Part shown: positions 2,801-47,166 of the stretch, piece by piece
Layout: every line of letters starts with the position of its first letter
Position numbering within the stretch: position 1 is the stretch's first letter
Made by a program: the position numbers and the translations under genes
Source: Owenia fusiformis
Lineage: Eukaryota > Annelida > Polychaeta > Sabellida > Oweniidae
Assembly (NCBI GenBank): GCA_903813345.2
Contig: CAIIXF020000011.1
Location: 11,940,842-12,004,841 of the forward strand
DNA: 64,000 nucleotides
Reading direction: 5' to 3'
The notes under the pieces: model-generated
The model's database searches: none
What the model was told of the DNA's origin: nothing
The model's input: the letters and a program-made list of their open reading frames with translations, nothing else

Positions 2801-3288
2801 CCTAAAGGAATCAATATAATTTTTTGATAATGTATTTGGACATGTTGTTTTCTCATCAGAATAGTGAAAATTATTTCACTCTAACGATGGTTATAGCTGC
2901 TTAATCAGCAATATTCGAATTAGTTGTGACGTTATTGGCCCCCACGTGATCTCTAACTGGTCCCCACGTGGCCAGTTTTGGTCCATAATAATGTCAAGAT
3001 GTTTTGTTATTTGTTTACACAACATACCTATAGAGCCCATGCCGTGACGTTGTTTTTGTTTAGTCTTTTGTTTCCTTAACTTAGTTATTAGCACTGACTG
3101 AAATATTATTATAGGCAAGTTAATCTTTTAGAATAATAGTATGTCTGATTTGAAAATATCAGCAAAGGAAAATATATTTGGTGAAAAGTTCAAAGATTTA
3201 TGTAATAAAGGATGTTATTGGAGCAAGCTGACATTGCAATCAGACAAGTGATTTCCTTCTAACTCTTCTCATGAATTCTCATGAATGG

Positions 3289-4528
3289 TTTCTCACGGTG
3301 CCCATGTCAAGCTGCGCGCCTACTTAGGCGCGCAGTTTGTTTCGATCACAAACTGCGTGCCTAAGAACATTGCATCATTTAAGTTGGAGTCTGTATTTTG
3401 AAACGTAATTTAAAGACATTTATCCTGCATTGTTTTCTTGTTCAATGCGTTCATTCTGTGGCGAATATATGAATCTCGCAAATACTAGCAAAAACTATGT
3501 GCAAATGAATCTAAGTTTTAAAACATAAGCAGATTAATGGCATTTTCGTCACTGATTTAACGGGAATTTATACGTAAATCGATCTAGCACTTTAAACATG
3601 ATTGACAAATACTTGAGACTCGTTTTATATTTAATTCCTTACACATTTATCATGTATAATTCAAAATATTTGAGATAAAACAGATAATCAGGAGATTAAA
3701 AAGAAAGAAATCACAAACTGCGCGCCTATTTTAGCCAGAAATTACAAACTGTGCGCATACACTATTAAAACTACATATTATCATTGGAATTTCTACAGAG
3801 GCACGTGTAGGTGTTTTTCATGTAGCTTTGGCAATTTTGCTTTATCGTCAGATTTTATGAGATTTTCATATTGAAAGTCAAAATGTAATAGAAGTGACAA
3901 TTAAGTTGGGAACGAAAAAAACTTTTATTTTCAGATCACCATCTTGGTGGATGGACTCTCATGGTGTTTCAATTATGGGGTTCTACTATTAGACACATAT
4001 GTGCCTTGTATGGCGATTATGTTTTCTAGTAATACAAAACAAGCTTGGATGGGCAAGCAGTTTGGAAATATTAGGCACGCAGTTTGGGAAATACATGTGA
4101 ATATAGGCGCGCAGTTTGACAAGAAAAATGTTTAAATCACGTTTATGGCGTATTATCGTTTTGAACACAAACTTTGCTGATTTAATCAGATACACAGACA
4201 CAATGGCTGAATAAACGGCAAATGACGATAAAAAGACATAGATATAACTTTACACTGTAAATTTTGAACACAGAAGTTACTTGAGACCCTTATATTGAGA
4301 TAACTAGGTTAACATCGGGAAAAACATTGAGTACTATGAGTAAATTAAGTTCATCTTCACAGAATGGTACTATCTTTAGAACGAGACTAACCTTGTATTT
4401 TTCGTATTTTGGCTCTTTTAGGGAGTCGTGTCCTCCCCGTCTCACATTTTGAAATATGCGCGCAGTTTGTCAGAGTTTCAAACTGCGTGCCTAGTAGGCA
4501 CGCTGCTTGACATGGGCATCGTGTTTCT
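3289..4528. mobile_element. 1.23-kb foldback-type element with a dispersed GCGCGCAGTTTG motif
   Basis: Ends at 3294 and 4523 are inverted copies (CACGRTGCCCATGTCAAGC continuing into GCCTACT-AGGC-CGCAGTTTG). They are directly flanked on both sides by TTTCT (3289-3293 and 4524-4528), a candidate 5-bp target duplication. The motif GGCRCGCAGTTTG or its complement recurs about ten times inside (near 3311, 3330, 3350, 3713, 3746, 4050, 4073, 4105, 4456, 4478, 4494). No transposase ORF is present, so it is non-autonomous. Superfamily unknown. Confidence 0.7.
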
Positions 4529-4627
4529 CGTGTTAACAAGCATGATAATGCTGTGTAATTCTGTAATAATTAGTGTTCCATCATATATTGATACTTATAT
4601 AATGCACTGATATAATGCATACATATA

Positions 4628-5244
4628 CAGGGTGTCAAAAAACAACAGCACCCCCCTCTACAGCAAAAACTCCTTAATGTTACATCGCATGTCATATATC
4701 ATTTGAAAGATAATTTAATTCTGGAGTTACTCATCAAGTTTCATTTTATAACATTTTATATTAAAAAAGCTACATTGTTTCAAAGTTTGCTACTTCAGTA
4801 CTTTGTTTGCCGCTTTGTCACTGATTAAGGGTCAAATCTTCAGAAAGTGGAATATATAGGAAATGGCCCAGATCTCATCTGCGCTGAATATATAGGGTCA
4901 ATTGTATGTAGGGAAATTGATGGACAAGGGGTCTTTTGAAAACAGAAACAGTAAGGATGTATTTCTGAAGAAGGTGGGGAAAATGCTACGAGGATTACGC
5001 AATGCTACACCACTATTTGAATCTTTATTTAGCCATATCCATCAAGATTTGCTGCTGTTCGTGCAGCAAGTGGTGCCCATACTAACTACTAATAATAGGC
5101 TGTAAAACTGTAAAATCACATGATACAAAGCTGAAAATTTTCAGGTAACTCCAGAATTAAATTATCTTTCAAATGAGATATAACATACTATGTAACATCC
5201 AGTACTTTTTGCTGTAGAGGGGGGTGCCGTTTTTTGACACCCTG
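4628..5244. mobile_element. TA-flanked MITE, CAGGGTGTCAAAAAA family
   Basis: Inverted ends of roughly 100 bp begin CAGGGTGTCAAAAAAC and end in the complement, with TA on both sides (4626-4627, 5245-5246), as in Tc1/mariner-derived MITEs. The inner arms include GATAATTTAATTCTGGAGTTAC and its complement. No ORF spans the element. Confidence 0.8.
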
Positions 5245-15690: not shown

Positions 15691-15699
15691 GAATCACAC

Positions 15700-16320
15700 A
15701 TCTTCCAGTGGCTTGCTCATCTTCCAGTGGTTTGCTCATCTTCCAGAGGGTCGCTCATCTTCCAGTGGATTGCTCATCTTTCAGTGGCTGGCTCATCTTC
15801 CAGTGGCGTGCTCATCTTCCAGAGGCGTGCTCATTTTCCAAGGGGTGGATCATCTAGCGGTTGGATCATCTTCAAGGTTGCTCTTCTTCCACCAGATAGA
15901 TCATCTTCAACTGGGAACTTGGTTTCCAATGGGTGACTTGTTTTGCAGTGTGTGGCTTGACTTCAAGTGGATCATCTTCAAGCGGGTGGATCATCTTCAA
16001 GCAGGTAGCTCATCTTCCAATGGAGGGATCATTTTCTAGAGGATAGCTTGCTTTCCAATGGGTAACTGGGCTTGCTCATCTTCCAGTGAGTTGCTCATCT
16101 TCCAGTGAGTTGCTCATATCCAGGGAGTTGCTCATCTTCCAGCGGGTGAATTATCTTCCAGCGGGTGGATCATCTTCCAGTGGTTGGATCATCTTCTAGC
16201 AGTTTGATCATCTTCAAGGTTGCCATCTTCCACCAGATAGATCATCTTCAATTCTGGAGCTTGGCTTTCCAATGGGCGACTTGTCTTGCAGTGTGTGGCT
16301 TCCAGTGTGTGGCTCAGGAG
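15700..16320. repeat. 19-bp minisatellite, block 0 (diverged)
   Basis: Degenerate copies of TGCTCATCTTCCAGTGGGT with many variants (GATCATCTTCAAGCGGGTG, CTTGGTTTCCAATGGG). More diverged than the later blocks, as expected at the edge of an array. Confidence 0.85.
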
Positions 16321-17330
16321 CTAGTGGGCTGATCACCTCCAAGCTAAAGGTAAATCTGGAAGAAATATTGTACATTAGGAAATAAAAATACTGTACTTAC
16401 TTGAACCCCACATCCTAGAGATATAACTTCCATCACAGACAGTGCTTCTTCAGCAACACACAGATATCACCAGAATAACAATATCCTATGAAGATACAGA
16501 CGCTGCAGGCAGATGGTGTATATTGTAGTTACTCTCATAAACTCCTCGGAAAAACAGAAGCTTATCTTCAGGGGAAGAGGAGTGCATCTGAAAGTACATA
16601 CAAAATAGGAAAAGCTTAGCAGTGGTCTCAATTTTCAACAAGGTTTCAGTGATCAAGACACTATAATAACAGGTGGAGGAGGGAATACGAATCTCCAGTG
16701 AGATCATCTTTCAGCAGGTTGATCATCTTCCACCAGGTGGATCATCTTCCAGCTGATGGGTCATCTTTCAGGGAGTAGCTTGTCTTCAGATGAGTGGCTT
16801 GACTTTCAGCAGATGGCTTGTAATCTGGTAGAATGCTCGTATTGCAGGAGCTGGCTAATATTCTAGTGGGTGCCTCATCTTCCAGTGGATGGCTGGTCTT
16901 CAAATGATTTTTTTTATCTTTTTGAGGGTGGTTCCTCTTCCAGAGGATGGATAATCTTCCAGACGGCATTTTCTGTTCCAGTTGGTTACTTGGCTTCCAG
17001 TTTGTGGCTTAGATTCTAGTGGGCTGATCACCCCCATGCTAAAGGCAAATCTGAAATACTCTAAATTTGGAAATAAAACTTCTGTACTTACTTGAGCAGG
17101 ATCCTAGAGACTTTTCTCATCTTGAACAAAGCTACTGCAGTCGCACAATGACATCACCAGAATAACAACATTTTATGTAGGTACAGGTGCTAAAGACACA
17201 AGCTCCTTATTGTAGTTACGCTTTGAACCATCTCAGAAAGGGTAGACGTTTCTACCTCCAGGGTAAGAGAAGTGCATCTGTAAGTACCTGTAAAATATGA
17301 AGTCAGCAATGATTTAATTTTTGATTTGTA
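16321..17330. repeat. Internal duplicated module in the array unit
   Basis: The stretch 16,321-16,690 (GGGCTGATCACC ... GTACTTACTTGA ... ATATCACCAGAATAACAA ... GTGCATCTG) recurs in diverged form at 17,017-17,330 (GGGCTGATCACC ... TGACATCACCAGAATAACAA ... GTGCATCTG). A looser minisatellite-like stretch lies between. The same pair is found in each array unit, and a third, more diverged form is at 33,490-33,880. No function recognised. Confidence 0.8.
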
Positions 17331-19781: not shown

Positions 19782-20179
19782 TCAGAATGACCCATGCTCA
19801 ACAATGCCATTCTTAGATATTCCTCAAAATCAATCGGGACAACATAAAACATGAACAATGGAAGGCCTCCCAACACTTGATCCAGTGTTAAGACATGTTT
19901 AGCAATCCAGCCTCATAGCAGATTCCAGGTTCCTTCACTCCAGAATAATGGGTTGGCCAACAAAATCCACTGGTTCAATCAAAATGGAAGGTGTCCCACT
20001 AATCCAGAAGAATCGGCCGCTCCTAAATACCATAGAAAACCATAGATGGAAAACATGTCTAGCTGGCAGATGGCCCCATATGGAATGACTAATAGGATAA
20101 CTCAACAAATTTACTTAACTTAGGTGACAGGATCATCGCGATGAAGCTCATCTTTAGGTAGTGGATTCAAGGAGGTGAC

Positions 20180-20870
20180 TCATCTTCCAGTGGATGGCTC
20201 CTCTTCCAGTGGGTGGCTCCTCTTCCATGGGATTGTTCATCTTCCAGCGCCCAACGGGTGGCTTATCTTGCAGCGGGTGGCTTATCTTCCAGCGAGTTGC
20301 TCCTTTTCCAGCAAGTTGCTCCTCTTCCAGCGAGTTGCTCCTCTTCCAGCGAGTTGCTCATCTTCCAGTGAGTTGCTCCTCTTCCAGTGAGTTGCTCCTC
20401 TTCCAGTGAGTTGCTCCTCTTCCAGTGAGTTGCTCCTCTTCCAGTGAGTTGCTCCTCTTCCAATGAGTTGCTTCTCTTCCAGTGAGTTGCTCATCTTCCA
20501 GTGAGTTGCTCATCTTCCAGTGGGTTGCTCCTCTCCCATTGGGTTGTTCATCTTCCAGTGGGTTGCTCATCTTCCAGTGGGTTTCTCATCTTCCAGTGGG
20601 TTGCTCATCTTCCAGGGAGTTGCTCATCTTCCAGTGAGTTGCTCATCTTCTAGATAGTTGCTCATCTTCCAGTGGGTTGCTCATCTTCCAGCGGATGAAT
20701 TATCTTCCAGCGGTTGGATCATCTTCTAGAAGTTTGATCATCTTCAAGGTTGCCATCTTCCATCAGATAGAACATCTTCAACTGGGAACTTGGCTTTCCA
20801 ATGGGTGACTTGTCTTGCAGTGTGTGGCTTGCAGTGTGTGGCTTGCAGTGTGTGGCTTCCAGTGTGTGGC
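20180..20870. repeat. 19-bp minisatellite, block 1
   Basis: Unit GTTGCTCCTCTTCCAGTGA (19 bp), about 25-30 copies, flanked by looser relatives. Because 19 is not a multiple of 3, each frame reads all three phases and gives a 19-residue peptide repeat. Several frames on both strands stay open for over 200 bp. This is a property of the repeat, not proof of translation. Confidence 0.95.
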
Positions 20871-22154
20871 TCAGGTGCTAGTGGGCTGATCACCTCCAAG
20901 CTAAAGGTAAATCTGGAAGAAATATTGTACATTAGGAAATAAAAATACTGTACTTACTTGAACCCCACATCCTAGAGATATATCTTCCATCACAGACAGT
21001 GCTTCTTCAGCAACACACAGATATCACCAGAATAACAATATCCTATGAAGATACAGACGCTGCAGGCAGATGGTGTATATTGTAGTTACTCTCATAAACT
21101 CCTCGGAAAAACAGAAGCTTATCTTCAGGGGAAGAGGAGTGCATCTGAAAGTACATACAAAATAGGAAAAGCTTAGCAGTGGTCTCAATTTTCAACAAGG
21201 TTTCAGTGATCAAGACACTATAATAACAGGTGGAGGAGGGAATACGAATCTCCAGTGAGATCATCTTTCAGCAGGTTGATCATCTTCCACCAGGTGGATC
21301 ATCTTCCAGCTGATGGGTCATCTTTCAGGGAGTAGCTTGTCTTCAGATGAGTGGCTTGACTTTCAGCAGATGGCTTGTAATCTGGTAGAATGCTCGTATT
21401 GCAGGAGCTGGCTAATATTCTAGTGGGTGCCTCATCTTCCAGTGGATGGCTGGTCTTCAAATGATTTTTTTTATCTTTTTGAGGGTGGTTCCTCTTCCAG
21501 AGGATGGATAATCTTCCAGACGGCATTTTCTGTTCCAGTTGGTTACTTGGCTTCCAGTTTGTGGCTTAGATTCTAGTGGACTGATCACCCCCATGCTAAA
21601 GGCAAATCTGAAATACTCTAAATTTGGAAATAAAACTTCTGTACTTACTTGAGCAGGATCCTAGAGACTTTTCTCATCTTGAACAAAGCTACTGCAGTCG
21701 CACAATGACATCACCAGAATAACAACATTTTATGTAGGTACAGGTGCTAAAGACACAAGCTCCTTATTGTAGTTACGCTTTGAACCATCTCAGAAAGGGT
21801 AGACGTTTCTACCTCCAGGGTAAGAGAAGTGCATCTGTAAGTACCTGTAAAATATGAAGTCAGCAATGATTTAATTTTTGATTTGTAGTTACAATGCCAA
21901 AATGATCGAGCCACTTTACAGGCGGAGGAGTGAATGCAAGGCATTCCTTTTATTGATCCTTGTAAATATCTCTTGGCCTTGTACCCCTCCCGGCTCAAGA
22001 TTTACATCATCAAATCAACTAACTGCCTGAACAGAAGTATCTATGTAGAACATGAATTAAAATTATGTTTTTGAATATTGAATTGCCCCCACCCCCAAGA
22101 CCAATATAATGAATAGTTTTATTTATCTTTTGATATGTAAAGCCAACATACACA

Positions 22155-24339
22155 TTATCTCCACATTTGCTCTACACTATAGCTACCCTCGTCCACGTGG
22201 GTGTAACGTTCCTGTTGTTTCTTTAGTTGCAGACACCTATTAGTACAAGCAATAGCAACATGCTTTGTAGATACAAACACTGCAAACAGCTGACCCAAAT
22301 CATTGATCCACTCCAAAACATCACAACCAGGGTAGAAATTGTTATGACCTGAAAGTACTAAAAAAAGGAAAAAAGTCAGCAATGATTTGACTTTTTTCCT
22401 TAAAAGAAATGAGTTAATATACCCATCTCACTGAAATGGCCATTTTCAGATATGAGTACATTTACATATTACTTTTAAGAGAATGCATGAACATGCAAAA
22501 TGTCACCACTGGCCATGTGTTAAAGATGCATTTAGTTCCAGTAAGCCGAACACTAACTGATTACTGCCATCAAGAAGTTTCGTCCACTCACCAGTTTGAG
22601 AATATAACAATATGTCAACACTCTGTAGTGACATAAAAGTCAAATCATTGCCCAGTAAGTACAGTTGATTAAAAACTATAAACAAAAATCATAGCATTAC
22701 TGAATTAATGGTCAAATTGTTGCTTTAAAAGCTAGCATTATAATATTCAAATGATCAAGACCAAATTGATAGAACTAGAAATATTTTGTTGGTATAAGTC
22801 TCAGAATGAAAATTACCAAACACATGCAAACAGAACCATTGTTCCCTGTGTTGCACCCAAGAACCTGCTTTGCTGGAAATACAAAAAATATGCTGTAATA
22901 CTTGTTAAACTTAATATAACAATTTACATAAATTGCCCAAAATTAAAATCGAACAGAATGGGAGGGATGGAGTAAGGTAGTAATATATCTTAACTAAGTA
23001 ATAAAATATTGCTTCCAGCTGTTCCCTGTGTGGCTGCTACCAAGGTCATTCTTCTGGTGGACGTGTGATTCTGTGCAAGGAGAAAATTCATTTATGAGTA
23101 ACTTCTGCATGAAACAGTAGTAGTTGTAGTCCAGAACATTAGTAGTCTTTTATCTTCTTCACAACACCTACATTGAGAAAATGATTTAATTGACTACCTT
23201 AACTCCAAAGCATGCAAGGGATTATCATTTATTGCAAAAAATAACCTTAAAAATCTGAACAAGTCACCTTTGTCAATCAGAGTCTAGATCATAAATACCT
23301 AGACGGTTGATTGCTTTTTGGACCAAAACATGGTCGCATTTACACTGACCTCAAAACAAGAAAAAAACAAGTTAAATTTAAAAAATTGATGAAAGTTAAG
23401 ATCATCTACCAACTCGCACTAAAAAAGAGAATGGAAGTCGAAAACTGAGATTAACATACTAAGGTATGTTAAGTCTCAGGTGAAAATGAGTTTACAAAAA
23501 AAAATATGAAGACAATATTTTCCAAATATGGCACACGTCTCTTCCATTTTGATATAAACCAGGTGGATTCCATTATTCTTTCATTTCAGAACATAGAATC
23601 TGTTAGGAAGCTTTCAGGCCAACACACCTTAACAAAGGATCAAACAATGGGTGACCATCCCTTCGCTCATGTCGTATGCTGTCTAGAGAGATTAAGAAGA
23701 ATAACAAGAATGACATCCTCGGCCATGCATAATTAGGATACATCACATTAAAAAGATGAAATACAAGACCATACCACTATCAATTCCCAATAGTATCTTT
23801 ACTGTAACACTGATAAGCAATGTCTACCTACCTAAAGAGTGCAAGGTAACATGTATCAACCCCGAGGCCATTCCGTACAGATCCAAGTGGAATCTTGCTG
23901 CGTCCTCACAAGATCTCTGGATCACACTATATCCGTCATAGCCAACTACTAACATTACAATACCAGCAAGTAAAAATGAGTGGACCTTCACCAGAGATCG
24001 ACAATACCCCTCCAGAACGACCCAATGCATGCCGGCACCACAGAATGCATTGAAGAAAGAAAATTCAGAATACCTCCTCCTGGTGGGTGCAAGACCCATC
24101 ATTTTCACTCGCAAGTAAAGAATGTTTTCGCCAGCCATCAGAATATAGGCGAAACAAAGAACCAAGCTCAACAATAAGAATCCAACATGGAAACTGTTGG
24201 TCGGGACTTACAAGGAATCGATACCTGAAACCCATGCATCCAGAGATTGATAGACACTGATCATCAGAATCACAGTGGAGGTACTACGAGGAACATCAAA
24301 CGGTATGACCGAGTAAACCAGAGCTCTCAATGCAATGGA
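22155..24339 (-). CDS. Unrecognised membrane protein gene, array copy 2
   Basis: Same exons as copy 1: 23832-24193, 23628-23682, 22592-22622 and last exon 22155-22348. The 116-residue hydrophobic region and the last exon translate identically to copy 1, which implies very recent duplication or conversion. Splice sites and polyadenylation signal are conserved. Confidence 0.5.
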
Positions 24340-24737
24340 TCAGAATGACCCATGCTCAACAATGCCATTCTTAGATATTCCTCAAAATCAATCGGGACAA
24401 CATAAAACATGAACAATAGAAGGCCTCCCAACACTTGATCCAGTGTTAAGACATGTTTAGCAATCCAGCCTCATAGCAGATTCCAGGTTCCTTCACTCCA
24501 GAATAATGGGTTGGCCAACAAAATCCACTGGTTCAATCAAAATGGAAGGTGTCCCACTAATCCAGAAGAATCGGCCGCTCCTAAATACCATAGAAAACCA
24601 TAGATGGAAAACATGTCTAGCTGGCAGATGACCCCATATGGAATGACTAATAGGATAACTCAACAAATTTACTTAACTTAGGTGACAGGATCATCGCGAT
24701 GAAGCTCATCTTTAGGTAGTGGATTCAAGGAGGTGAC

Positions 24738-25430
24738 TCATCTTCCAGTGGATGGCTCCTCTTCCAGTGGGTGGCTCCCCTTCCATGGGATTGTTCATCT
24801 TCCAGCGCCCAACGGGTGGCTTATCTTGCAGCGGGTGGCTTATCTTCCAGCGAGTTGCTCCTTTTCCAGCAAGTTGCTCCTCTTCCAGCGAGTTGCTCCT
24901 CTTCCAGCGAGTTGCTCATCTTCCAGTGAGTTGCTCCTCTTCCAGTGAGTTGCTCCTCTTCCAGTGAGTTGCTCCTCTTCCAGTGAGTTGCTCCTCTTCC
25001 AGTGAGTTGCTCCTCTTCCAATGAGTTGCTTCTCTTCCAGTGAGTTGCTCATCTTCCAGTGAGTTGCTCATCTTCCAGTGGGTTGCTCCTCTCCCATTGG
25101 GTTGTTCATCTTCCAGTGGGTTGCTCATCTTCCAGTGGGTTGCTCATCTTCCAGTGGGTTGCTCATCTTCCAGGGAGTTGCTCATCTTCCAGTGAGTTGC
25201 TCATCTTCTAGATAGTTGCTCATCTTCCAGTGGGTTGCTCATCTTCCAGCGGATGAATTATCTTCCAGCGGTTGGATCATCTTCTAGAAGTTTGATCATC
25301 TTCAAGGTTGCCATCTTCCACCAGATAGAACATCTTCAACTGGGAACTTGGCTTTCCAATGGGTGACTTGTCTTGCAGTGTGTGGCTTGCAGTGTGTGGC
25401 TTGCAGTGTGTGGCTTCCAGTGTGTGGCTC
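24738..25430. repeat. 19-bp minisatellite, block 2
   Basis: Near-identical to block 1 with the same unit number; a few single-base differences (for example CTCCCCTTCC near 24,776). Confidence 0.95.
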
Positions 25431-26718
25431 AGGTGCTAGTGGGCTGATCACCTCCAAGCTAAAGGTAAATCTGGAAGAAATATTGTACATTAGGAAATAA
25501 AAATACTGTACTTACTTGAACCCCACATCCTAGAGATATATCTTCCATCACAGACAGTGCTTCTTCAGCAACACACAGATATCACCAGAATAACAATATC
25601 CTATGAAGATACAGACGCTGCAGGCAGATGGTGTATATTGTAGTTACTCTCATAAACTCCTCGGAAAAACAGAAGCTTATCTTCAGGGGAAGAGGAGTGC
25701 ATCTGAAAGTACATACAAAATAGGAAAAGCTTAGCAGTGGTTTCAATTTTCAACAAGGTTTCAGTGATCAAGACACTATAATAACAGGTGGAGGAGGGAA
25801 TACGAATCTCCAGTGAGATCATCTTTTAGCAGGTTGATCATCTTCCACCAGGTGGATCATCTTCCAGCTGATGGGTCATCTTTCAGGGAGTAGCTTGTCT
25901 TCAGATGAGTGGCTTGACTTTCAGCAGATGGCTTGTAATCTGGTAGAATGCTCGTATTCCAGGAGCTGGCTAATATTCTAGTGGGTGCCTCATCTTCCAG
26001 TGGATGGCTGGTCTTCAAATGATTTTTTATCTTTTTGAGGGTGGTTCCTCTTCCAGAGGATGGATAATCTTCCAGACGGCATTTTCTGTTCCAGTTGGTT
26101 ACTTGGCTTCCAGTTTGTGGCTTAGATTCTAGTGGGCTGATCACCCCCATGCTAAAGGCAAATCTGAAATACTCTAAATTTGGAAATAAAACTTCTGTAC
26201 TTACTTGAGCAGGATCCTAGAGACTTTTCTCATCTTGAACAAAGCTACTGCAGTCGCACAATGACATCACCAGAATAACAACATTTTATGTAGGTACAGG
26301 TGCTAAAGACACAATTGTACAAGCTCCTTATTGTAGTTACGCTTTGAACCATCTCAGAAAGGGTAGACGTTTCTACCTCCAGGGTAAGAGAAGTGCATCT
26401 GTAAGTACCTGTAAAATATGAAGTCAGCAATGATTTAATTTTTGATTTGTAGTTACAATGCCAAAATGATCGAGCCACTTTACAGGCGGAGGAGTGAATG
26501 CAAGGCATTCCTTTTATTGATCCTTGTAAATATCTCTTGGCCTTGTACCCCTCCCGGCTCAAGATTTACATCATCAAATCAACTAACTGCCTGAACAGAA
26601 GTATCTATGTAGAACATGAATTAAAATTATGTTTTTGAATATTGAATTGCCCCCACCCCCAAGACCAATATAATGAATAGTTTTATTTATCTTTTGATAT
26701 GTAAAGCCAACATACACA

Positions 26719-28911
26719 TTATCTCCACATTTGCTCTACACTATAGCTACCCTCGTCCACGTGGGTGTAACGTTCCTGTTGTTTCTTTAGTTGCAGACAC
26801 CTATTAGTACAAGCAATAGCAACATGCTTTGTAGATACAAACACTGCAAACAGCTGACCCAAATCATTGATCCACTCCAAAACATCACAACCAGGGTAGA
26901 AATTGTTATGACCTGAAAGTACTAAAAAAGGGAAAAAAGTCAGCAATGATTTGACTTTTTTCCTTAAAAGAAATGAGTAAATATACCCATCTCACTGAAA
27001 TGGCCATTTTCAGATATGAGTACATTTACATATTACTTTTAAGAGAATGCATGAACATGCAAAATGTCACCACTGGCCATGTGTTAAAGATGCATTTAGT
27101 TCCAGTAAGCCGAACACTAACTGATTACTGCCATCAAGAAGTTTCGTCCACTCACCAGTTTGAGAATATAACAATATGTCAACACTCTGTAGTGACATAA
27201 AAGTCAAATCATTGCCCAGTAAGTACAGTTGATTAATAAAAACTATAAACAAAAATCATAGCATTACTGAATTAATGGTCAAATTGTTGCTTTAAAAGCT
27301 AGCATTATAATATTCAAATGATCAAGACCAAATTGATAGAACTAGAAATATTTTGTTGGTATAAGTCTCAGAATGAAAATTACCAAACACATGCAAACAG
27401 AACCATTGTTCCCTGTGTTGCACCCAAGAACCTGCTTTGCTGGAAATACAAAAAATATGCTGTAATACTTGTTAAACTTAATATAACAATTTACATAAAT
27501 TGCCCAAAATTAAAATCGAACAGAATGGGAGGGATGGAGTAAGGTAGTAATATATCTTAACTAAGTAATAAAATATTGCTTCCAGCTGTTCCCTGTGTGG
27601 CTGCTACCAAGGTCATTCTTCTGGTGGACGTGTGATTCTGTGCAAGGAGAAAATTCATTTATGAGTAACTTCTGCATGAAACAGTAGTAGTTGTAGTCCA
27701 GAACATTAGTAGTCTTTTATCTTCTTCACAACACCTACATTGAGAAAATGATTTAATTGACTACCTTAACTCCAAAGCATGCAAGGGATTATCATTTATT
27801 GCAAAAAATAACCTTAAAAATCTGAACAAGTCACCTTTGTCAATCAGAGTCTAGATCATAAATACCTAGACGGTTGATTGCTTTTTGGACCAAAACATGG
27901 TCGCATTTACACTGACCTCAAAACAAGAAAAAAACAAGTTAAATTGAAAAATTGATGAAAGTTAAGATCATCTACCAACTCGCACTAAAAAAGAGAATGG
28001 AAGTCGAAAACTGAGATTAACATACTAAGGTATGTTAAGTCTCAGGTGAAAATGAGTTTACAAAAAAAAAAATGAAGACAATATTTTCCAAATATGGCAC
28101 ACGTCTCTTCCATTTTGATATAAACCAGGTGGATTCCATTATTCTTTCATTTCAGAACATAGAATCTGTTAGGAAGCTTTCAGGCCAACACACCTTAACA
28201 AAGGATCAAACAATGGGTGACCATCCCTTCGCTCATGTCGTATGCTGTCTAGAGAGATTAAGAAGAATAACAAGAATGACATCCTCGGCCATGCATAATT
28301 AGGATACATCACATTAAAAAGATGAAATACAAGACCATACCACTATCAATTCCCAATAGTACATGTATCTTTACTGTAACACTGATAAGCAATGTCTACC
28401 TACCTAAAGAGTGCAAGGTAACATGTATCAACCCCGAGGCCATTCCGTACAGATCCAAGTGGAATCTTGCTGCGTCCTCACAAGATCTCTGGATCACACT
28501 ATATCCGTCATAGCCAACTACTAACATTACAATACCAGCAAGTAAAAATGAGTGGACCTTCACCAGAGATCGACAATACCCCTCCAGAACGACCCAATGC
28601 ATGCCGGCACCACAGAATGCATTGAAGAAAGAAAATTCAGAATACCTCCTCCTGGTGGGTGCAAGACCCATCATTTTCACTCGCAAGTAAAGAATGTTTT
28701 CGCCAGCCATCAGAATATAGGCGAAACAAAGAACCAAGCTCAACAATAAGAATCCAACATGGAAACTGTTGGTCGGGACTTACAAGGAATCGATACCTGA
28801 AACCCATGCATCCAGAGATTGATAGACACTGATCATCAGAATCACAGTGGAGGTACTACGAGGAACATCAAACGGTATGACCGAGTAAACCAGAGCTCTC
28901 AATGCAATGGA
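26719..28911 (-). CDS. Unrecognised membrane protein gene, array copy 3
   Basis: Same exons: 28404-28765, 28194-28248, 27156-27186 and last exon 26719-26912. Coding parts translate as in copies 1 and 2. Small insertions (3 bp near 27,236, 6 bp near 28,361) fall in predicted introns, and the 8-bp insertion near 26,313 lies downstream of the stop. All three leave the coding exons intact. Confidence 0.5.
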
Positions 28912-29309
28912 TCAGAATGACCCATGCTCAACAATGCCATTCTTAGATATTCCTCAAAATCAATCGGGACAACATAAAACATGAACAATGGAAGGCCTCC
29001 CAACACTTGATCCAGTGTTAAGACATGTTTAGCCATCCAGCCTCATAGCAGATTCCAGGTTCCTTCACTCCAGAATAATGGGTTGGCCAACAAAATCCAC
29101 TGGTTCAATCAAAATGGAAGGTGTCCCACTAATCCAGAAGAATCGGCCACTCCTAAATACCATAGAAAACCATAGATGGAAAACATGTCTAGCTGGCAGA
29201 TGACCCCATATGGAATGACTAATAGGATAACTCAACAAATTTACTTAACTTAGGTGACAGGATCATCGCGATGAAGCTCATCTTTAGGTAGTGGATTCAA
29301 GGAGGTGAC

Positions 29310-29985
29310 TCATCTTCCAGTGGATGGCTCCTCTTCCAGTGGGTGGCTCCTCTTCCATGGGATTGTTCATCTTCCAGCGCCCAACGGGTGGCTTATCTTG
29401 CAGCGGGTGGCTTATCTTCCAGCGAGTTGCTCCTTTTCCAGCAAGTTGCTCCTCTTCCAGCGAGTTGCTCCTCTTCCAGCGAGTTGCTCATCTTCCAGTG
29501 AGTTGCTCCTCTTCCAGTGAGTTGCTCCTCTTCCAGTGAGTTGCTCCTCTTCCAGTGAGTTGCTCCTCTTCCAATGAGTTGCTTCTCTTCCAGTGAGTTG
29601 CTCATCTTCCAGTGAGTTGCTCATCTTCCAGTGGGTTGCTCCTCTTCCATTGGGTTGTTCATCTTCCAGTGGGTTGCTCATCTTCCAGTGGGTTGCTCAT
29701 CTTCCAGTGGGTTGCTCATCTTCCAGGGAGTTGCTCATCTTCCAGTGAGTTGCTCATCTTCTAGATAGTTGCTCATCTTCCAGTGGGTTGCTCATCTTCC
29801 AGCGGATGAATTATCTTCCAGCGGGTGGATCATCTTCTAGAAGTTTGATCATCTTCAAGGTTGCCATCTTCCACCAGATAGAACATCTTCAACTGGGAAC
29901 TTGGCTTTCCAATGGGTGACTTGTCTTGCAGTGTGTGGCTTGCAGTGTGTGGCTTGCATTGTGTGGCTTCCAGTGTGTGGCTCAG
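29310..29985. repeat. 19-bp minisatellite, block 3
   Basis: As blocks 1 and 2 but exactly one 19-bp unit shorter, which accounts for the shorter period of this unit. Confidence 0.95.
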
Positions 29986-31263
29986 GTGCTAGTGGGCTGA
30001 TCACCTCCAAGCTAAAGGTAAATCTGGAAGAAATATTGTACATTAGGAAATAAAAATACTGTACTTACTTGAACCCCACATCCTAGAGATATATCTTCCA
30101 TCACAGACAGTGCTTCTTCAGCAACACACAGATATCACCAGAATAACAATATCCTATGAAGATACAGACGCTGCAGGCAGATGGTGTATATTGTAGTTAC
30201 TCTCATAAACTCCTCGGAAAAACAGAAGCTTATCTTCAGGGGAAGAGGAGTGCATCTGAAAGTACATACAAAATAGGAAAAGCTTAGCAGTGGTTTCAAT
30301 TTTCAACAAGGTTTCAGTGATCAAGACACTATAATAACAGGTGGAGGAGGGAATACGAATCTCCAGTGAGATCATCTTTTAGCAGGTTGATCATCTTCCA
30401 CAAGGTGGATCATCTTCCAGCTGATGGGTCATCTTTCAGGGAGTAGCTTGTCTTCAGATGAGTGGCTTGACTTTCAGCAGATGGCTTGTAATCTGGTAGA
30501 ATGCTCGTATTCCAGGAGCTGGCTAATATTCTAGTGGGTGCCTCATCTTCCAGTGGATGGCTGGTCTTCAAATGATTTTTTATCTTTTTGAGGGTGGTTC
30601 CTCTTCCAGAGGATGGATAATCTTCCAGACGGCATTTTCTGTTCCAGTTGGTTACTTGGCTTCCAGTTTGTGGCTTAGATTCTAGTGGGCTGATCACCCC
30701 CATGCTAAAGGCAAATCTGAAATACTCTAAATTTGGAAATAAAACTTCTGTACTTACTTGAGCAGGATCCTAGAGACTTTTCTCATCTTGAACAAAGCTA
30801 CTGCAGTCGCACAATGACATCACCAGAATAACAACATTTTATGTAGGTACAGGTGCTAAAGACACAAGCTCCTTATTGTAGTTACGCTTTGAACCATCTC
30901 AGAAAGGGTAGACGTTTCTACCTCCAGGGTAAGAGAAGTGCATCTGTAAGTACCTGTAAAATATGAAGTCAGCAATGATTTAATTTTTGATTTGTAGTTA
31001 CAATGTCAAAATGAGCGAGCAACTTTACAGGCGGAGGAGGGAATGCAAGGCATTCCTTTTATTGATCCTAGTAAATATCTCTTGGCCTTGTACCCCTCCC
31101 GGCTCAAGATTTACATCATCAAATCAACTAACTGCCTGAACAGAAGTATCTCTGTAGAACATGAATTAAAATTATGTTTTTGAATATTGAATTGCCCCCA
31201 CCCCCAAGACCAATATAATGAATAGTTTTATTTATCTTTTGATATGTAAAGCCAACATACACA

Positions 31264-32944: not shown

Positions 32945-33480
32945 GCAGGTGGTTGTTCATCTTCCAGTGGGTTGTTCATCTTCCAGTGGGTTGTTCATCT
33001 TCCAGTGTGTTGCTCATCTTCCAGTGAGTTAATCATCTTCCAGTGAGTTGCTCATCTTCCAGTGAGTTGCTCATCTTCCAGCGGGTGAGTTATCTTCCTG
33101 CTGGTGGCTTATCTTCCAGGGGGTGGCTTATCTTCCAGGGGGTGGATCATCTTCAAGCGGGTGGATCATCTTCCAGCAGGTTGCTAATTTTCTAGCAGGT
33201 GGATCCTCTTCCAGTGGGTTGTTCATCTTCCAGTGGGTTGCTCTTCTTCCAGTGAGTTGCTCCTCTCCCGGTGAGTTGCTCATCTTCCAGTGAGTTGCTC
33301 ATCTTCCAGTGAGTTGCTCATCTTCCAATGGGTTGAATAGAATTATCTTCCTGTGGTTGGATCATCTTCTAGCAGTTTGATCATCTTCAAGGTTGTCATC
33401 TTCCACCAGACAGATCATCTTCAACTGGGAACCTGGCTTTTCAATGGGTGACTTGTCTTGCAGTGTGTGGTTTCCAGTGT
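32945..33480. repeat. 19-bp minisatellite, block 4 (diverged, after the breakpoint)
   Basis: Same unit type (GTTGTTCATCTTCCAGTGG, GTTGCTCATCTTCCAGTGA) but with its own variant order, so it was not part of the recent homogenisation. Confidence 0.9.
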
Positions 33481-38140: not shown

Positions 38141-40027
38141 ACCCGATGGAATCTAAAATGGGAGTGGAACACTCAGCATATAAAATTGTAAACTATAGAA
38201 GGAAAACAGCAACAAAAACAAACATCGATAAAGACAAAGGGGAAGGGGAGTGTTACCGGTAGAAAAAGCTTTAACCCACCGACGTGTAGTCACAAGTCTG
38301 CAGACTCGACACCAAAAAAGACCTAAGAGGAAAGTAATAGGGAGAAGACCAAGAAAGAAGAAACTAAAGAGGACAAGAAAATAACAACAACAGAAACATA
38401 GAAGAAACTAAGAAGACAAAAAGTGAAAAAAGACAAATAAAATCAGAAGAAGTATGAAGAAAATAGCAGCAACTTGAAATAAATGTTCAAGCTGGACTGA
38501 ATGAAGATGACATGAACAGCATATAAACAAGACGTCTGTCCGTTCGTCCGTCATTCCGTCCGGGCGATAACTCAAATACCAGTTGACGGATTTGATTCAA
38601 AATTTATGGGCTTTTGCTTATGGGGGTGAAACTTCTACTCGAGAAGGAATTTTCAATATGGCCACTTATTCAAAATGGCCGCTATTTTTCGTAAAAATGT
38701 AATCTTTGATTATCCAAATACTAGTGGAGGATTTTTGTTTCAAATTTTATATGCTGATGCTTAGTGACAAATGGAGATGCTGGAGAAGATATTAAAATGG
38801 TGGCCATTTTTCGTAAAAAACGCAATCTTTGATAACTCAAATACCAGTGAACGGATTTGGTTCAAATTTTATATGATGATGCCTAGGGACAAAATAGATT
38901 GGTTTCAAGATGGCGGTTGAATTTCAAAATGGCCGCCATTTTTCATAAAAAAACGTAAGTTTGATAACTAAAATACCAGTCAACAGAGTTGGTTCAAATT
39001 TTTGATAACTCAAATACAAATTGACGGATTATATTCAAATTTTATATGCTGATGCCGAGGGACAAAGGAGCTATCCTGAAGAAGAGATTTCCAAAATGGT
39101 TGCTGAATATCAAAATAGCAGCCATTTTTCGCAAAAACGTAATCTTTTATAACTCAAATACCAGTGAACGGATTTGGCTCAAATTTTATTTACATGATGC
39201 CTATGAACAAAGTAGATTTGTTCAAGAAAGGATTTTCAAGATGGCGGCTGAATTTCAAAATGGCAGCTATGTTTCATAAAAAATGTAATCTTTGATAACT
39301 CAAATACTAGTGGACGGATTTGGTTCAATTTTTTATGTTTCTGCCTAGGAACAAATGAGCTATCCTAAAGAAGAGATTTTCAAAATGGCTGCTTAATTGC
39401 TAAATATCAAAATGGCAGCCATTTTTCGTAAAAAACGTAATCTTTGATAATTCAAGTATTTTATGTGATGATGCCTTGGGAAAAGTAGATTTGTTCGAGA
39501 AAGAATTTTCATGAGGCAGCTGAATTTCAAAATGGCCGCCATTTTTCATTAAAAACGTAATCTTTGATAATTCAAATACTAGTGGACGGATTTGGTTCAA
39601 ATTGTATAAGTTGATGCCTAGGGATAAAGGAGCTACGCTGAAGAATAGATTTTTAGAATGGCTGCGAAATAGCAAAATGTCAGCCATTTTTTGTAAAAAA
39701 TATAATCTTTGATAACTCAAATATTAGTTAACGGATTTGGTTCAAGTTTTATATGCTGATGCCTAGGGACAAAGGAGCTACCCTGAAGGAAAGATGTTCA
39801 AAATGGCTGCTAAATATAAAAATGGCTGCCATTTTTCATAAAAAACATAATCTTTGATAACTCAAATACCAGTGATCGGATTTGGTTCAAATTTTATATG
39901 ATGGTGCCTAGGGAAAAAGTAGATTTGTCCAAAAAAGAATTCTCAAGATGGCGGCTAAATTTCAAAATGGCCGCCATTTTCAGAAAAAACTTAATCGTTA
40001 TAACTCAAATACTAGTTGACGGATTTG

Positions 40028-40714
40028 GTGCAGTATGGCAAGTGATTTTAGACGGTCATATCTTTCACCATGAGTACTTTTCTGTGCATAAATACAGTGG
40101 TTTTTATTAAAACAATATGTTTTCTTTCAAGTGAAGTACCCATGATGATAAAAATATAAATCAAACAATTTGAAAAATTATGAATAGGGACCCCAAGTCA
40201 ACATTTTTCCAAAATATTGAACCTATTTACTAAAAAAAGGGGATCTTCTTTTTCTGATTTTTATTGCATGAAAACATTAATCAACAAGGAGTCTAAGACA
40301 TGTTCAAAAATAGAATGGTATTGAAAGTCTAGTTTTGAAGATATCAATTTTCGATGACCAAAATTATGGTTGAAAACAATGGATAGCACGAGTATTCCCT
40401 ATGGGAAAATAACTCATTTCAATACCCATTCCCTTTTCAGAAATTGTTAATATAGCGTAGATGAGACTTTCGTTATGTTTAAATTGAGAAAAACAAGATC
40501 CTCATTTTAGAAAATGATAAGCCTAACATTTTTCAAAAAGTGCCAAGGTGGGGCCCTTATCCATAATTTTTCAAAGAGTTGGTTTGATATTTTACTATCA
40601 TGGGGACTTCACTTGAAAGAAAACATACTGTTTCAATAAAAGCCACTGTATGTATGGCCACAAAGTACTCATGGTGAAAGATATGACTGTCTAAAATCAC
40701 TTACCATACTGCAC
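40028..40714. mobile_element. 687-bp foldback element inside the satellite
   Basis: GTGCAGTATGGCAAGTGATT ... ATATCTTTCACCATGAGTAC at the left is inverted at the right end (GTACTCATGGTGAAAGATAT ... CCATACTGCAC). The arms of ~120 bp include ACTTCACTTGAAAGAAAACA. Confidence 0.85.
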
Positions 40715-42780: not shown

Positions 42781-42786
42781 GTTTGG
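42781..42786. repeat. Target-site duplication, left
   Basis: GTTTGG directly before the AGTAG terminus; identical to 47,161-47,166. Six-base duplication is the Polinton/Maverick hallmark. Confidence 0.95.
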
Positions 42787-43018
42787 AGTAGTTACAGAAA
42801 CGAGAGTTCTGACGCACCTTTAACATTGAGTCCTATGGGGAGGGACACGATTTTTCATAGTACCCTCCCTAACATGGGCTCCAATGGGGAGGGACATCTG
42901 TGAGCCTCCCTGAGCTCGGGAGGCACATACGGGGACCCCACCCCTCCCCCTCGGCGTGGTGGCGTGTACATATTTCGGGAATCTCGGGCCCTAAGAGTAA
43001 CGGACGCCCTACCCCACG
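42787..43018 (+). repeat. Left terminal inverted repeat
   Basis: 232 bp, matching the complement of 46,928-47,160. The differences I see are a C-run length (5 versus 7) and a one-base gap (CTAAGAGTAACGG versus CTAAGGTAACGG). It contains two inverted GAGGGAC-GGGAGG style blocks. Confidence 0.95.
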
Positions 43019-43029
43019 ACTATACGTTC

Positions 43030-43562
43030 CGGAAGTTAGCCATTTTGACAGGAAGTCAGCCATTTTGACCGGAAGTCAGCCCGGAAGTCAGCCATTTAAC
43101 CGGAAGTCGGCCATTTTGAAGCTTTCTAGCAGGAAGTCAGCCATTTTGCATCTGTCTGGGCAAGAGGGTGACATCATAGCGGAAGTGAGGCATCTTTTAG
43201 TCGGCCTGGGTAGGTTTTAAAACGGAAGTTAGCCATCTTTTCCCTACCTCCTCCCACTTCCTCCTTACCTCCTCCTTACCTCCCCCCGCCTCCTCCCTAC
43301 CTCATCATTACCTCCTCCCTATATCCTCCTTACCTCTTCCCACCTCTTCCTTACCTTCTCCCACCTCCTCTCTACCTCCTCCCGCTTCCTCCTTACCTCC
43401 TCCCACCTCCTCCCTACCTCATCATTACCTCCTCCTTACCTCCTCAAACCTCTTCCTTACCTCCTCCCACCTCCTCCCTACCTCCTCCTTACCTCATACC
43501 TCCTCCTACTTCCACCCAACCTCCTCCTGTCTCTTCTCCATCTTCCAAACCTCCTCCCCTCC
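43030..43562. repeat. Subterminal repeats inside the left end of the element
   Basis: 43,030-43,241 has about eight copies of GGAAGTCAGCCATTTTGAC with variants. 43,242-43,562 is a polypyrimidine tract of CCTCCTTACCTCCTCCCACC type units. Subterminal repeats of this kind may bind the integrase or other transposition proteins; that is inference. Confidence 0.85.
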
Positions 43563-43734
43563 CTTTACTTTAATATTCAATAGTTTATAATGTCATAAAT
43601 GCCTGTTTATGTTTACAATTGATCTTAATTGACACATTTTGAACCAATCACAATACTGCACATTAGAATATTCTTATATATTTTAAGTTGTCCATGTTTT
43701 GAGTCATTTTACTGATAGATCTTGAACAGACAAC

Positions 43735-45326
43735 ATGTCTTTCAATTGTTCTGAGTGTAGTGTGAATTTTACGAGAGGTGATAACCTATCAAGGCATATG
43801 AATAAGTTTCATGGAGAAAAAATGCATCAGTCTGATGTTATGCTGAAACATCCGTTTACTATGATAGCAGGTATAGGCATGGACATGTTGAAATTAAAAG
43901 TCTGATAGGTTTCTAAATATAGAAAGAGAGCATGTCAATTTATTAAAAAAAAAATTTTTTTGTTGTATTTTCAGCCGGACCAACATCGTCGGGGAAGACC
44001 TGGCTTATGAAGCACTTGATCAAAAATGTTGAACGGTATATATCCCCAATTCCTAGAAGAATCATCTGGTGTTATGGTCAATGGCAGCCTGCCTACGAAG
44101 AGCTAAGAAAATACCCACATTTGGAATTTGTGAAGGGAATACCAGAGGATATTGATGATTCAAGATACCTTGACACTTCAGTTCCTACTTTGATACTTCT
44201 CGATGATCTTATGAATGAGGCAACAAATGATCAACGGATATGTGATCTCTATAGCAAAGGCAGTCACCATCGAAATCTGTCTGTGATATGCCTACTCCAG
44301 AATATGTATCATCAAGGAAAAATGAATAGATCGATGAGCTTAAACTCTCACTATATGATACTGTTTAATAACCCGAGAGATCGCCAACAGGTGGCATTCT
44401 TATCGAGGCAGATGTACCCCGGAAATGGAAACAAGTTGGTCAGAGCATATACCAACGCAACTAGTCGACCCTATGGTTACCTGCTTCTTGATCTGAAGCA
44501 AGAAACTTCGGAGCACAGCAGATTGAAACCAAATGCCTTTACTAAAAGTGAAGTTGAATTTGAAAGTCATCACGATTCCCGCAACTTCAAGGAACCAATG
44601 AATGATTCAAAACACTTACTTGAAAGACAGGGTATTTCAGAAGTTGACTATCCGACGACAACATTTATAAATAGTAGTGATGTTAAGAACTACCCTTACA
44701 TGGAACGTGAATTTCGAGAAGACAGCATGGTATCCTGTGATGACTGTGGTTTAGTATTTGATAGCATTCACGACTTACAGAGGCATATAAAAAAGTGGTG
44801 TCAAGATCAGGGACCACTACCCAAGAGGATGAGGACCCAATCTACCCAAAATATTGAGGAGAAGATTCCTCAAGACAAAGACAATGACGTTGATGACGAT
44901 GATGGTGATTTGAAAGCAAATGAAACATTTGCATTCTTAAAGAAGTGGTCTATAAGACAGAATGAGGAAGACCACCGACGTAAAGTGGATGAGTATATGG
45001 ATAGAGGGATGGATAAGACAGAGGCTGTAGAAAAGGCAGATAATAAACTATTGTCAAAGAATAAGGAAGAATTTATAAAAGGATATAAACAATTCGTCAA
45101 GCTAACGGTTGATGTAAAAGACAATGCGTTACACAGAAATATAATTGATTCAATAAATAATATGATGAGGAGGGGTGTCTCTGTGAACTTAGCCATTAGG
45201 AAGACACTTTTAAAAAACAAACACAAGTTTGATGAGGTCTTTATAGAGGATACAGACCAGGAAAGTAGCTCCGAGGAAGAACAGAGTGAATCCGAAAACG
45301 AGGCTGTTGAATCAAGCACTGAGTGA
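43735..45326 (+). CDS. Polinton-type FtsK/HerA-like ATPase with zinc fingers (two exons)
   Basis: Exon 1 is 43735-43870, intron 43871-43974 (GTATAG ... TTTTCAG) and exon 2 is 43975-45326, giving 495 residues. The start ATG lies in AACATGTCT after a clear non-coding tract. A C2H2 finger (C5, C8, H21, H26) comes first. The intron falls just before the Walker A loop GPTSSGKT (47-54). Walker B is LILLDDL (118-124) and the sensor-like strand LSVICLLQN ends near 155, matching packaging ATPases of Polintons and related viruses. A second C-x2-C-x12-H-x4-C finger is at 300-321, and the C-terminus is acidic and serine-rich. Reading the ORF from 44,007 alone would lose the Walker A loop. In Polintons this protein is thought to pump DNA into capsids, so its retention here without capsid genes is odd. 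Confidence 0.88.
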
Positions 45327-45385
45327 TAAATATTAGCAATTTAAAGAGAGATCGTCATTAAGGAGTCAGATTCCGACAGTGTAAG

Positions 45386-46483
45386 ATGGCATATCAAGAC
45401 TATTTAAAGAAATTATACTTTGACAGTCGAAATTCTGGAGCCTTTGCTGGACCAGACAAACTCTATAGAGCTGTACTAAATGATGGGAAATACCAGCTGT
45501 CCCGTTATCAGATAAAGAAATGGCTGGACAATCAAGAAGCTTATGGCCTACAGAGACCTTATAAGAAACGATTCGCTCGTAACAAAGTATATGTCTCGCA
45601 TATTGACGAACAATGGGATGCAGATCTTATGGATGTCTCTAATATATCATCGCAGAATGACGGGATAAAGTATATCCTGGTTGCGATTGACATTATGTCT
45701 CGCTTTGCCTGGGTTAGACCGCTACACTCCAAAACTGGAAAGGCAGTGGCGGAGGCTTTCGATGATATATTGAAAGAAGGTCGACAACCAGATGTCACTA
45801 GGACGGACAAAGGTCAAGAATTCCGCGCTAAGGTTGTACAAACATTGTTGAATAGATGGGGAGTCCGCCATTTTGTTACGGGTAATACCCCCAAGGCCAA
45901 CTATGCAGAAAGATTGATAAAGACGTTAAAGACTAAAATAATGAGGTATATCACGTACAAACAGAACCATAGATTTATAGACAATTTACAAAACTTTGTG
46001 AAGAGTTATAACGCCACTTGGCATAGGGGTATAAAAATGGCTCCTAAAAATGTATCTAAAGACGATGAATTGGTTATTTGGTGGCGGATGTATTATCCTA
46101 AATCAACTATCGTTAAAACCAAATCTAATCACATCTTTAAATTCCCCATTGGAGCTCTGGTAAGAATTACCCAGTCGAGACATGTTTTTAGTAGAGAATA
46201 CGACCAACATTGGACAGGGGAAATTTTTAAAGTAACGAAACGTTTTATTAGGCAGGGCCTCCCATTATATCGTTTAAATGATTTTCAAAATGAAGACATT
46301 AAGGGTACTTTTTACCAATCGGAGCTTCAAAGAGTACAAGCGAACGAAGATGATATTTGGAAAGTAGAAAAAATCTTGAAAACACGAACTAGACGAGGGC
46401 AACGGGAACATTTAGTGCGTTGGCAATATTGGCCAAAAAAGTTTGATTCGTGGGTTAAAGATTCCGATTTAATACCTTTGTAA
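45386..46483 (+). CDS. Polinton-type DDE integrase with C-terminal chromodomain
   Basis: 365 residues, intact, starting 59 bp after the ATPase stop at ATGGCATATCAAG. Retroviral-type rve core: first catalytic D in WDADLMD (D80, or D83), second in TRTDKGQEF (D141), E in NYAERLIK (E175). The D-E spacing is near the usual 35. The N-terminal 70 residues are helical and basic; no HHCC zinc ligands are visible. Residues 322-363 form a chromodomain (IWKVEKILKTR ... HLVRWQYWPKKFDSWV), a module that can bind modified histones and steer insertion. The protein belongs with the widespread transposon-derived F54H12.3-like integrases. It would cut and join the element ends and make the 6-bp duplication. Confidence 0.93.
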   Translation: MAYQDYLKKLYFDSRNSGAFAGPDKLYRAVLNDGKYQLSRYQIKKWLDNQEAYGLQRPYKKRFARNKVYVSHIDEQWDADLMDVSNISSQNDGIKYILVAIDIMSRFAWVRPLHSKTGKAVAEAFDDILKEGRQPDVTRTDKGQEFRAKVVQTLLNRWGVRHFVTGNTPKANYAERLIKTLKTKIMRYITYKQNHRFIDNLQNFVKSYNATWHRGIKMAPKNVSKDDELVIWWRMYYPKSTIVKTKSNHIFKFPIGALVRITQSRHVFSREYDQHWTGEIFKVTKRFIRQGLPLYRLNDFQNEDIKGTFYQSELQRVQANEDDIWKVEKILKTRTRRGQREHLVRWQYWPKKFDSWVKDSDLIPL

Positions 46484-46927
46484 TTTGTGTATGATTCAAT
46501 GAAGAATTTTGAATGTTATAATGTAAATATGTATTATAGTTGATGTATTTTGAAAAGAAGTGTGTTGACGAATTAGCAAATAAATATTTATCCCAACCAA
46601 ATGTAACATCCATTAAACGGTATGATCTTAAATCGATGAAGGACGTTACACTAATTAAAGTTGATGGATGGTTGATTGATAATCGATAATCGAGCTAGGT
46701 CCGCACTTTAAAGTACAGTCCAGAGTAATTTGTTTCGTAAACTGACAGCTGGATGACCTTAAAACGATAAGACCTCGCGAGTACGAAACGCCTGGTTGAT
46801 AGGTAATCGATAATCCGCCTGGGCCGCACTTTATAAATAAGGCAGTGACATTTACGACGCGTACTGGTTTATCGATTTATTGTTTTTGGCGGGAATTCGA
46901 ATAGTATCCTTACAGTAAACGTACAAA
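46484..46927. other. Non-coding right arm of the element
   Basis: Contains a direct repeat of GGTTGAT-GATAATCGATAATC followed by CGCACTTTA, at about 46,670-46,715 and 46,792-46,835. AATAAA at about 46,580 could serve as a polyadenylation signal for the integrase. Confidence 0.6.
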
Positions 46928-47160
46928 CGTGGGGTAGGGCGTCCGTTACCTTAGGGCCCGAGATTCCCGAAATATGTACACGCCACCACGCCGAGGGGGG
47001 GAGGGGTGGGGTCCCCGTATGTGCCTCCCGAGCTCAGGGAGGCTCACAGATGTCCCTCCCCATTGGAGCCCATGTTAGGGAGGGTACTATGAAAAATCGT
47101 GTCCCTCCCCATAGGACTCAATGTTAAAGGTGCGTCAGAACTCTCGTTTCTGTAACTACT
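46928..47160 (-). repeat. Right terminal inverted repeat
   Basis: 233 bp, near-identical complement of the left repeat; ends CTGTAACTACT. Confidence 0.95.
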
Positions 47161-47166
47161 GTTTGG
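47161..47166. repeat. Target-site duplication, right
   Basis: GTTTGG directly after the CTACT terminus. The paralogous empty site at 11,803 has one copy (GTATGG). Confidence 0.95.

Follow-up and report, generated by a model that had tools for sequence, protein, structure and literature searches.

The 64,000-nucleotide window analysed here is a stretch of the genome of the annelid Owenia fusiformis (contig CAIIXF020000011.1, positions 11,940,842 to 12,004,841), and coordinates are those of the window unless stated otherwise. At 42787-47160, it contains a 4374-bp element, referred to as class A, with two genes, i.e. an ATPase gene and an integrase gene. As described below, the ends of this element are shared with two other classes of elements, B and C, with different gene contents.

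The element in the window

Polintons/Mavericks are characterized by long terminal inverted repeats starting with AG and by 6-bp target site duplications (TSDs). Similarly, class A has inverted repeats of ~242 bp that start with AGTAGT, a 6-bp duplication, an rve integrase with a chromodomain and an A32/FtsK-type ATPase. The features are as follows (strand in brackets where assigned):

42781-42786: left TSD copy, GTTTGG, 6 bp
42787-43028 (+): left terminal inverted repeat, ~242 bp, starting with AGTAGT, 97-98% identical to the ends of B and C
43031-43541: GGAAGTCAGCCATTTT repeats and a CT-rich tandem repeat, not common to B
43735-43870 (+): first ATPase exon, encoding a single C2H2 zinc-finger motif, by reading of the sequence
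43871-43974 (+): predicted ATPase intron, GT..AG, by reading of the sequence
43975-45326 (+): ATPase exon 2 with an A32-like P-loop domain, a C2H2 finger and a C-terminal helical domain
45386-46483 (+): DDE integrase INT1 with a chromodomain
45586-47160: 96-100% identity to B per 50-bp bin, suggesting recent exchange; ~70% upstream, from 43968
46856-47160 (-): right end, 305 bp common to both ends of B and C, with the terminal inverted repeat in its outer ~242 bp
47161-47166: right TSD copy, GTTTGG

The element termini read AGTAGT...ACTACT. Over 164 nt, the inverted arms (42787-42950 and 46997-47160) show 100% complementarity; beyond this, an imperfect match extends to about 43028/46918. Over ~242 bp, the left and right ends are 97.5-98% identical. 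The frame of ATPase exon 2 is open to 45326 and contains GPTSSGKT and LILLDD, which we take to be the Walker A and Walker B motifs, respectively. INT1 (365 amino acids) matches the Pfam domains rve (E=7.9e-11) and Chromo (E=2.2e-6). A tblastn search of class A with 14 pieces of protein from B and C, including the four polymerase frames of B, matched only the ATPase and the integrase, and no capsid, penton, protease or polymerase gene was found in this search, which did not include an unbiased search of other frames.

The original prediction, made from the letters of the window, had described a 4.4-kb element with a packaging-type ATPase and an integrase, and this description is confirmed. The perfect 6-bp duplication is present as GTTTGG on both sides, the spliced ATPase has its exon 2 frame and both Walker motifs (with exon 1 and the intron by sequence reading), the integrase with its chromodomain is intact, and the statement that the element carries nothing else agrees with the tblastn result within the scope of that search. 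The terminal repeats had been called an intact 232 bp starting with AG; the length and the AG hold, while perfection is confined to 164 nt.

Three classes of elements with common ends

We searched the genome (498 Mb, 525 contigs) with the left end of the window element and scored 40 of 76 candidates. These 40 end matches gave 22 elements, i.e. 16 of class A, four of class B and two of class C. Among the class A elements, 14 are full-size (4.36-4.38 kb) with 97.6-99.9% identity to the window copy, one has a 1.45-kb insertion and one an internal deletion. A chance arrangement of genes is ruled out because the genome has 13 more full-size copies elsewhere, and a perfect 6-bp duplication of its own flanks each of them; a lone relic is likewise ruled out by the 16 A-type elements. 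Overall, a perfect 6-bp TSD flanks all 27 elements for which both ends were read (the 22 from the end matches and five identified later). Of the 16 A elements, 14 have an open ATPase exon 2 (L012 is frameshifted and L025 partly deleted) and 14 an open integrase (L020 is interrupted and L025 partly deleted). The exon 1 stretch is kept in 14 of the 15 copies compared, the exception being L012 with a deletion in this exon. In L020, the insert of about 1.45 kb lies within the integrase gene at 3247-4697 of the element.

Three of the class B elements are 9.3 kb long with 99.6-99.8% mutual identity and the fourth is 10.4 kb. They carry a gene for a polymerase-B-like protein, a zinc-finger ATPase related to that of A, and the same integrase as A. 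The two class C elements from the end search (8.0 and 9.3 kb) carry genes for a capsid protein, a penton-like protein, a protease and a different, small ATPase. A polymerase and an integrase were not detected in class C (in the copies at C11 and C6, and in the flanks read of the copy at C1), and genes for capsid, penton and protease are absent from A and B as judged by tblastn with the B and C protein pieces. In one class C copy (L026), the left 1.37-1.38 kb is tandemly duplicated (201-1584 and from 1585 on), and 12 bp at the extreme end are missing from the inner copy.

Mosaic structure and exchange of ends

Between the window element and the B element L021, the ATPase genes differ with a dN of 0.25 and a dS of about 1.9 (ratio about 0.13), and are saturated in several stretches. 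By contrast, dS in the integrase is 0.63 in the first 60 codons and near 0 in the rest. At element positions 1180-2500, identity of A to B is for the most part 60-80%, dropping to 38-58% in one stretch, and at positions 2800-4374, it is 96-100% per 50-bp bin. Because the ATPase distance is saturated while the 3' half is near-identical, A as a simple internal deletion of B is ruled out. In the A copy L018, the B-like part begins near 2540, i.e. about 250 bp earlier, and because its breakpoint differs, this copy represents an independent exchange with B.

In a comparison of the first 232 bp of 44 ends from 22 elements, end alleles cross the classes: T9 and A34 are found in A and C, and G41 in A, B and C. 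At column 74, T74 is carried by 7 of 8 B ends and by a single end each of A and C; A74 is likewise carried by a single end of each of these two latter classes. Single columns could represent recurrent point mutation; in combination, columns 9, 34, 41 and 74 fit an exchange of ends among A, B and C. At the penton side of the C1 copy, 569 bp match the A/B right end.

Polymerase-like and capsid genes lie on separate elements

Genome searches at the DNA level, by which distant families are missed, gave 45 matches to the B polymerase exon, with all 38 candidates scored, and, for the capsid gene, 22 matches at about 20 places, with all 20 candidates scored. The polymerase, which we presume from its motifs to be a PolB, has four matches of ~100% that correspond to the four B elements, one broken copy of 91-96%, and others of 66-81%; the latter, some of which are on the small contigs C91, C369 and C457, represent several related families. 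All 22 capsid matches are more than 30 kb away from every polymerase match (41 kb in the closest pair), and a full-length relative with polymerase, integrase and capsid genes was not found in this genome.

C ends and duplications were found at five capsid places (C11, C6, C12, C5 and C1). Three of these copies (C12, C5 and C1) came from the capsid-gene search, each with C ends and a perfect 6-bp duplication. The C12 and C5 copies are about 7.98 and 7.91 kb; the ends alone were read, and we infer their gene content because their size fits class C. The C1 copy is 10.25 kb and has a 2.55-kb insertion (692-3246 of L056) between the protease and small ATPase genes. The A/B/C ends were not met at guessed end positions of other capsid places (eight probed, then twelve), the C1 copy excepted; two of these other places were subsequently assigned to the class D described next.

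At C2 and C4, a fourth class, D, has the same capsid genes as class C, the DNA being for the most part 96-98% identical and about 93% identical close to the penton gene. As in Polintons/Mavericks, genes for capsid, penton-like protein, protease and ATPase are together in C and D. In D, an integrase gene, INT2, with 36% identity to INT1 adjoins the penton gene; INT2 is open in the C4 copy and apparently frame-broken in the C2 copy. The outer ends of D differ from those of A/B/C (AGTAGTAAATCATA), with 883-bp repeats and a total of 8.86 kb in the C2 copy, while D and C have subterminal stretches in common. No match to the B polymerase was found in D. Class C lacks INT2 at the site of INT2 in D and has the A/B outer ends in place of those of D. 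Because of these two features, class C reads as a D-type capsid element from which the integrase was lost and whose ends were replaced by those of A/B. Five capsid-gene matches form a cluster within ~120 kb (C4:30392283-30510905). In PDB sequence searches, the protease gave weak matches to adenovirus proteinase, and the capsid protein and the small ATPase gave none. Scans of viral contigs with ATPase and major capsid protein (MCP) alignments (22 and 65 pattern matches, respectively) gave no confirmed relative.

The separation of these genes bears on the possibility that A, B and C are separate internal-deletion derivatives of one complete Polinton, present in the population or outside the assembly, that mobilises all of them. 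Defective derivatives with shared ends are common among DNA transposons, 36 of the 76 end candidates are unscored, and D has an integrase and capsid genes together. However, the ATPase dS of about 1.9 means that A was not cut from B; C and B have different ATPases and share nothing internal to the ~476-bp end; and no polymerase match lies within 30 kb of a capsid match. We consider a common origin by deletion very unlikely. The original prediction had asked whether the element is one of many with the same two-gene structure or, alternatively, a sole copy and a simple internal deletion of a relative with the same ends. The former holds, with 16 A-type elements, 14 of them full-size, and the latter is contradicted. 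It had also considered hitchhiking on full-length relatives: elements with polymerase-like and capsid genes do share the ends of A, but full Polintons with the same termini were not found, the two sets of genes being on separate elements.

The zinc-finger ATPase of A and B

The ATPase of A has 205 relatives, many of which are labelled Pox_A32, with Mytilus and Pinctada among those named; for the A protein itself, Pfam gave no ATPase domain match. In part of the family (27-sequence alignment), there is a C-terminal C2H2 finger followed by a helical region. The predicted structure (mean pLDDT 71.7 overall) contains the ATPase domain and, at about 320-425, a helical domain modelled with confidence. 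Among viral folds, the matches were to packaging ATPases of virions (five at E<=0.001; best BFVD match E=1.1e-5), and a PDB fold search gave no match at E<=0.001. The small ATPase of the capsid elements has 32% identity to the A/B ATPase.

When the exchanged patch of L018 is left out, the ATPase genes of 14 A copies show 26 changes, 13 of them synonymous and 13 nonsynonymous, and no copy has a premature stop. If the changes were neutral, 20-27% of those not creating a stop would be expected to be synonymous, giving P(>=13/26) = 0.0008 to 0.011, depending on transition bias; about half of the 26 changes sit in L018. The integrase has only three changes (one synonymous, two nonsynonymous), which are too few to inform. 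Together, these ATPase counts and the A-B ratio support that the A/B ATPase is under purifying selection in capsid-less elements, i.e. that its function is kept in elements without capsid genes, although some of the A-B distance may date from ancestors equipped with capsid genes. A second role of the ATPase, in transposition, had been suggested from the window as one possibility. The other ATPase of the capsid elements, the C2H2 finger and helical domain, and the purifying selection lend support to this idea, and a non-packaging role of the ATPase is plausible.

Alternatively, A may be a self-sufficient two-gene transposon, in which the ATPase is a helper of the integrase, and C may merely parasitise the A ends. 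IS21 (IstA/IstB), Tn7 (TnsB/TnsC) and Mu (A/B) pair an integrase-type transposase with an AAA+ ATPase, and A resembles them in this pairing. Moreover, A is the commonest class, with 16 of the 22 elements behind the scored end matches, its full-size copies are nearly identical and hence young, and both genes are constrained, each being open in 14 copies. By contrast to the AAA+ helpers, however, the A ATPase is A32/packaging-like. Also, integrase-type enzymes alone are not known to excise, and, therefore, a copying step is expected for A, while B, which has a polymerase-like gene, has ends in common and exchanges sequence with A. On balance, self-sufficiency of A appears rather unlikely.

A proposed model for a split Polinton system

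Building on what was directly observed, i.e. which genes the elements read contain, their common ends and duplications, the mosaic structure, end exchange and selection on the ATPase, we favor a model in which a Polinton-derived system has been split into components with common ends that act in trans, with A as one component (probability about 0.6). In this model, INT1, encoded by A and B, would recognize the common ends and insert A, B and the integrase-less C with 6-bp duplications. Element anatomy strongly suggests that C is mobilised in trans by INT1 via the shared ends, and the presence of C in at least five copies despite no detectable INT or polymerase argues for this. The polymerase-B-like enzyme of B would probably copy linear forms of A, B and C from the common ends, and we have moderate confidence that A and C are replicated in trans in this way. 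C would provide the capsid protein, the penton-like protein, the protease and its own packaging ATPase. Finally, and with weak to moderate confidence, the A/B zinc-finger ATPase may be a packaging ATPase put to a new use, cooperating with INT1 and the ends, e.g. by holding or moving linear DNA.

Several points weigh against this model. A full-length element could lie outside the assembly or among the 36 unscored end candidates, or have genes too diverged for DNA searches; 13 of the 20 capsid places are without class assignment; Pfam and PDB sequence searches of the B polymerase gave no polymerase match; and gene conversion at chromosomal sites could give shared ends without co-replication. Even more tentatively, and with the odds rather against it, the system could represent an integrated multipartite Polinton, i.e. 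a dsDNA virus-transposon with integration/ATPase, polymerase and capsid genes on separate end-sharing elements that are co-copied, putatively packaged in the same cells and reassort their ends, and with the A/B ATPase turned into a transposition factor.

Polintons are described as 15-20 kb long with pPolB, INT, ATPase and PRO on one element (PMC4028283). By contrast, A, B, C and D are 4.4, 9.3, 8.0 and 8.9 kb, respectively, and the polymerase-like gene is on B only and the capsid genes on C/D only. Among the 72 Polintons of Krupovic et al. 2014, 46 have a full-length MCP, 13 a split MCP and nine none; the nine also lack protease and ATPase, which was taken as concerted loss (PMC4028283). A and B run against this pattern, lacking capsid genes but retaining an ATPase. 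A capsid-less origin of Polintons was left open by Yutin et al. 2013 (PMC3671162). The genome of the bidnavirus-like Vesanto virus is split into putative segments whose terminal inverted repeats are similar (PMC8363768, PMC11071296). Bidnaviruses/Vesanto virus resemble the system described here in the split genome, relatives of the Polinton-type polymerase and similar segment ends; however, they have ssDNA and a parvovirus-type capsid and are not integrated Polinton elements with an integrase. Meldvirus/adintovirus genomes have adenovirus-class virion proteins without recognizable PolB and integrase (PMC11071296), as does class C, but they are viral contigs, and partner elements with shared ends are not mentioned in the available text of that source.

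As in satellite viruses and virophages, A is a small element that would rely on the genes of another. Unlike in these, the capsid element C itself lacks integrase and polymerase, and, therefore, dependence is apparently mutual; an outside helper virus is not needed in the model. The complementary genes on A, B and C with conserved termini are also reminiscent of a multipartite virus. We recognized no report of a split Polinton in the literature covered on split, capsid-less and multipartite Polintons, and one may exist in print.

Polintons are regarded as a bridge between transposons and viruses. Capsid genes without an integrase and wearing the ends of another integrase family may illustrate how splitting, cheating and cooperation arise among such bridging elements. 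The young, apparently recently active set in O. fusiformis could serve as a natural system for analyzing Polinton ends as signals for integration, replication and packaging, and as a test case for a packaging ATPase serving transposition.

Other repeats in the window

Outside the element, the window has arrays of a 19-bp unit (CTCATCTTCCAGTGGGTTG) at 20179-30477 and also at 15699-16809 and 32951-33335. Arrays start at 20179, 24737 and 29309, a spacing of about 4.56 kb, as with tandem duplication. At 38667-40029, units of ~122-145 bp that contain 'CAAAATGGCCGCCATTTT'-like motifs form tandem arrays.

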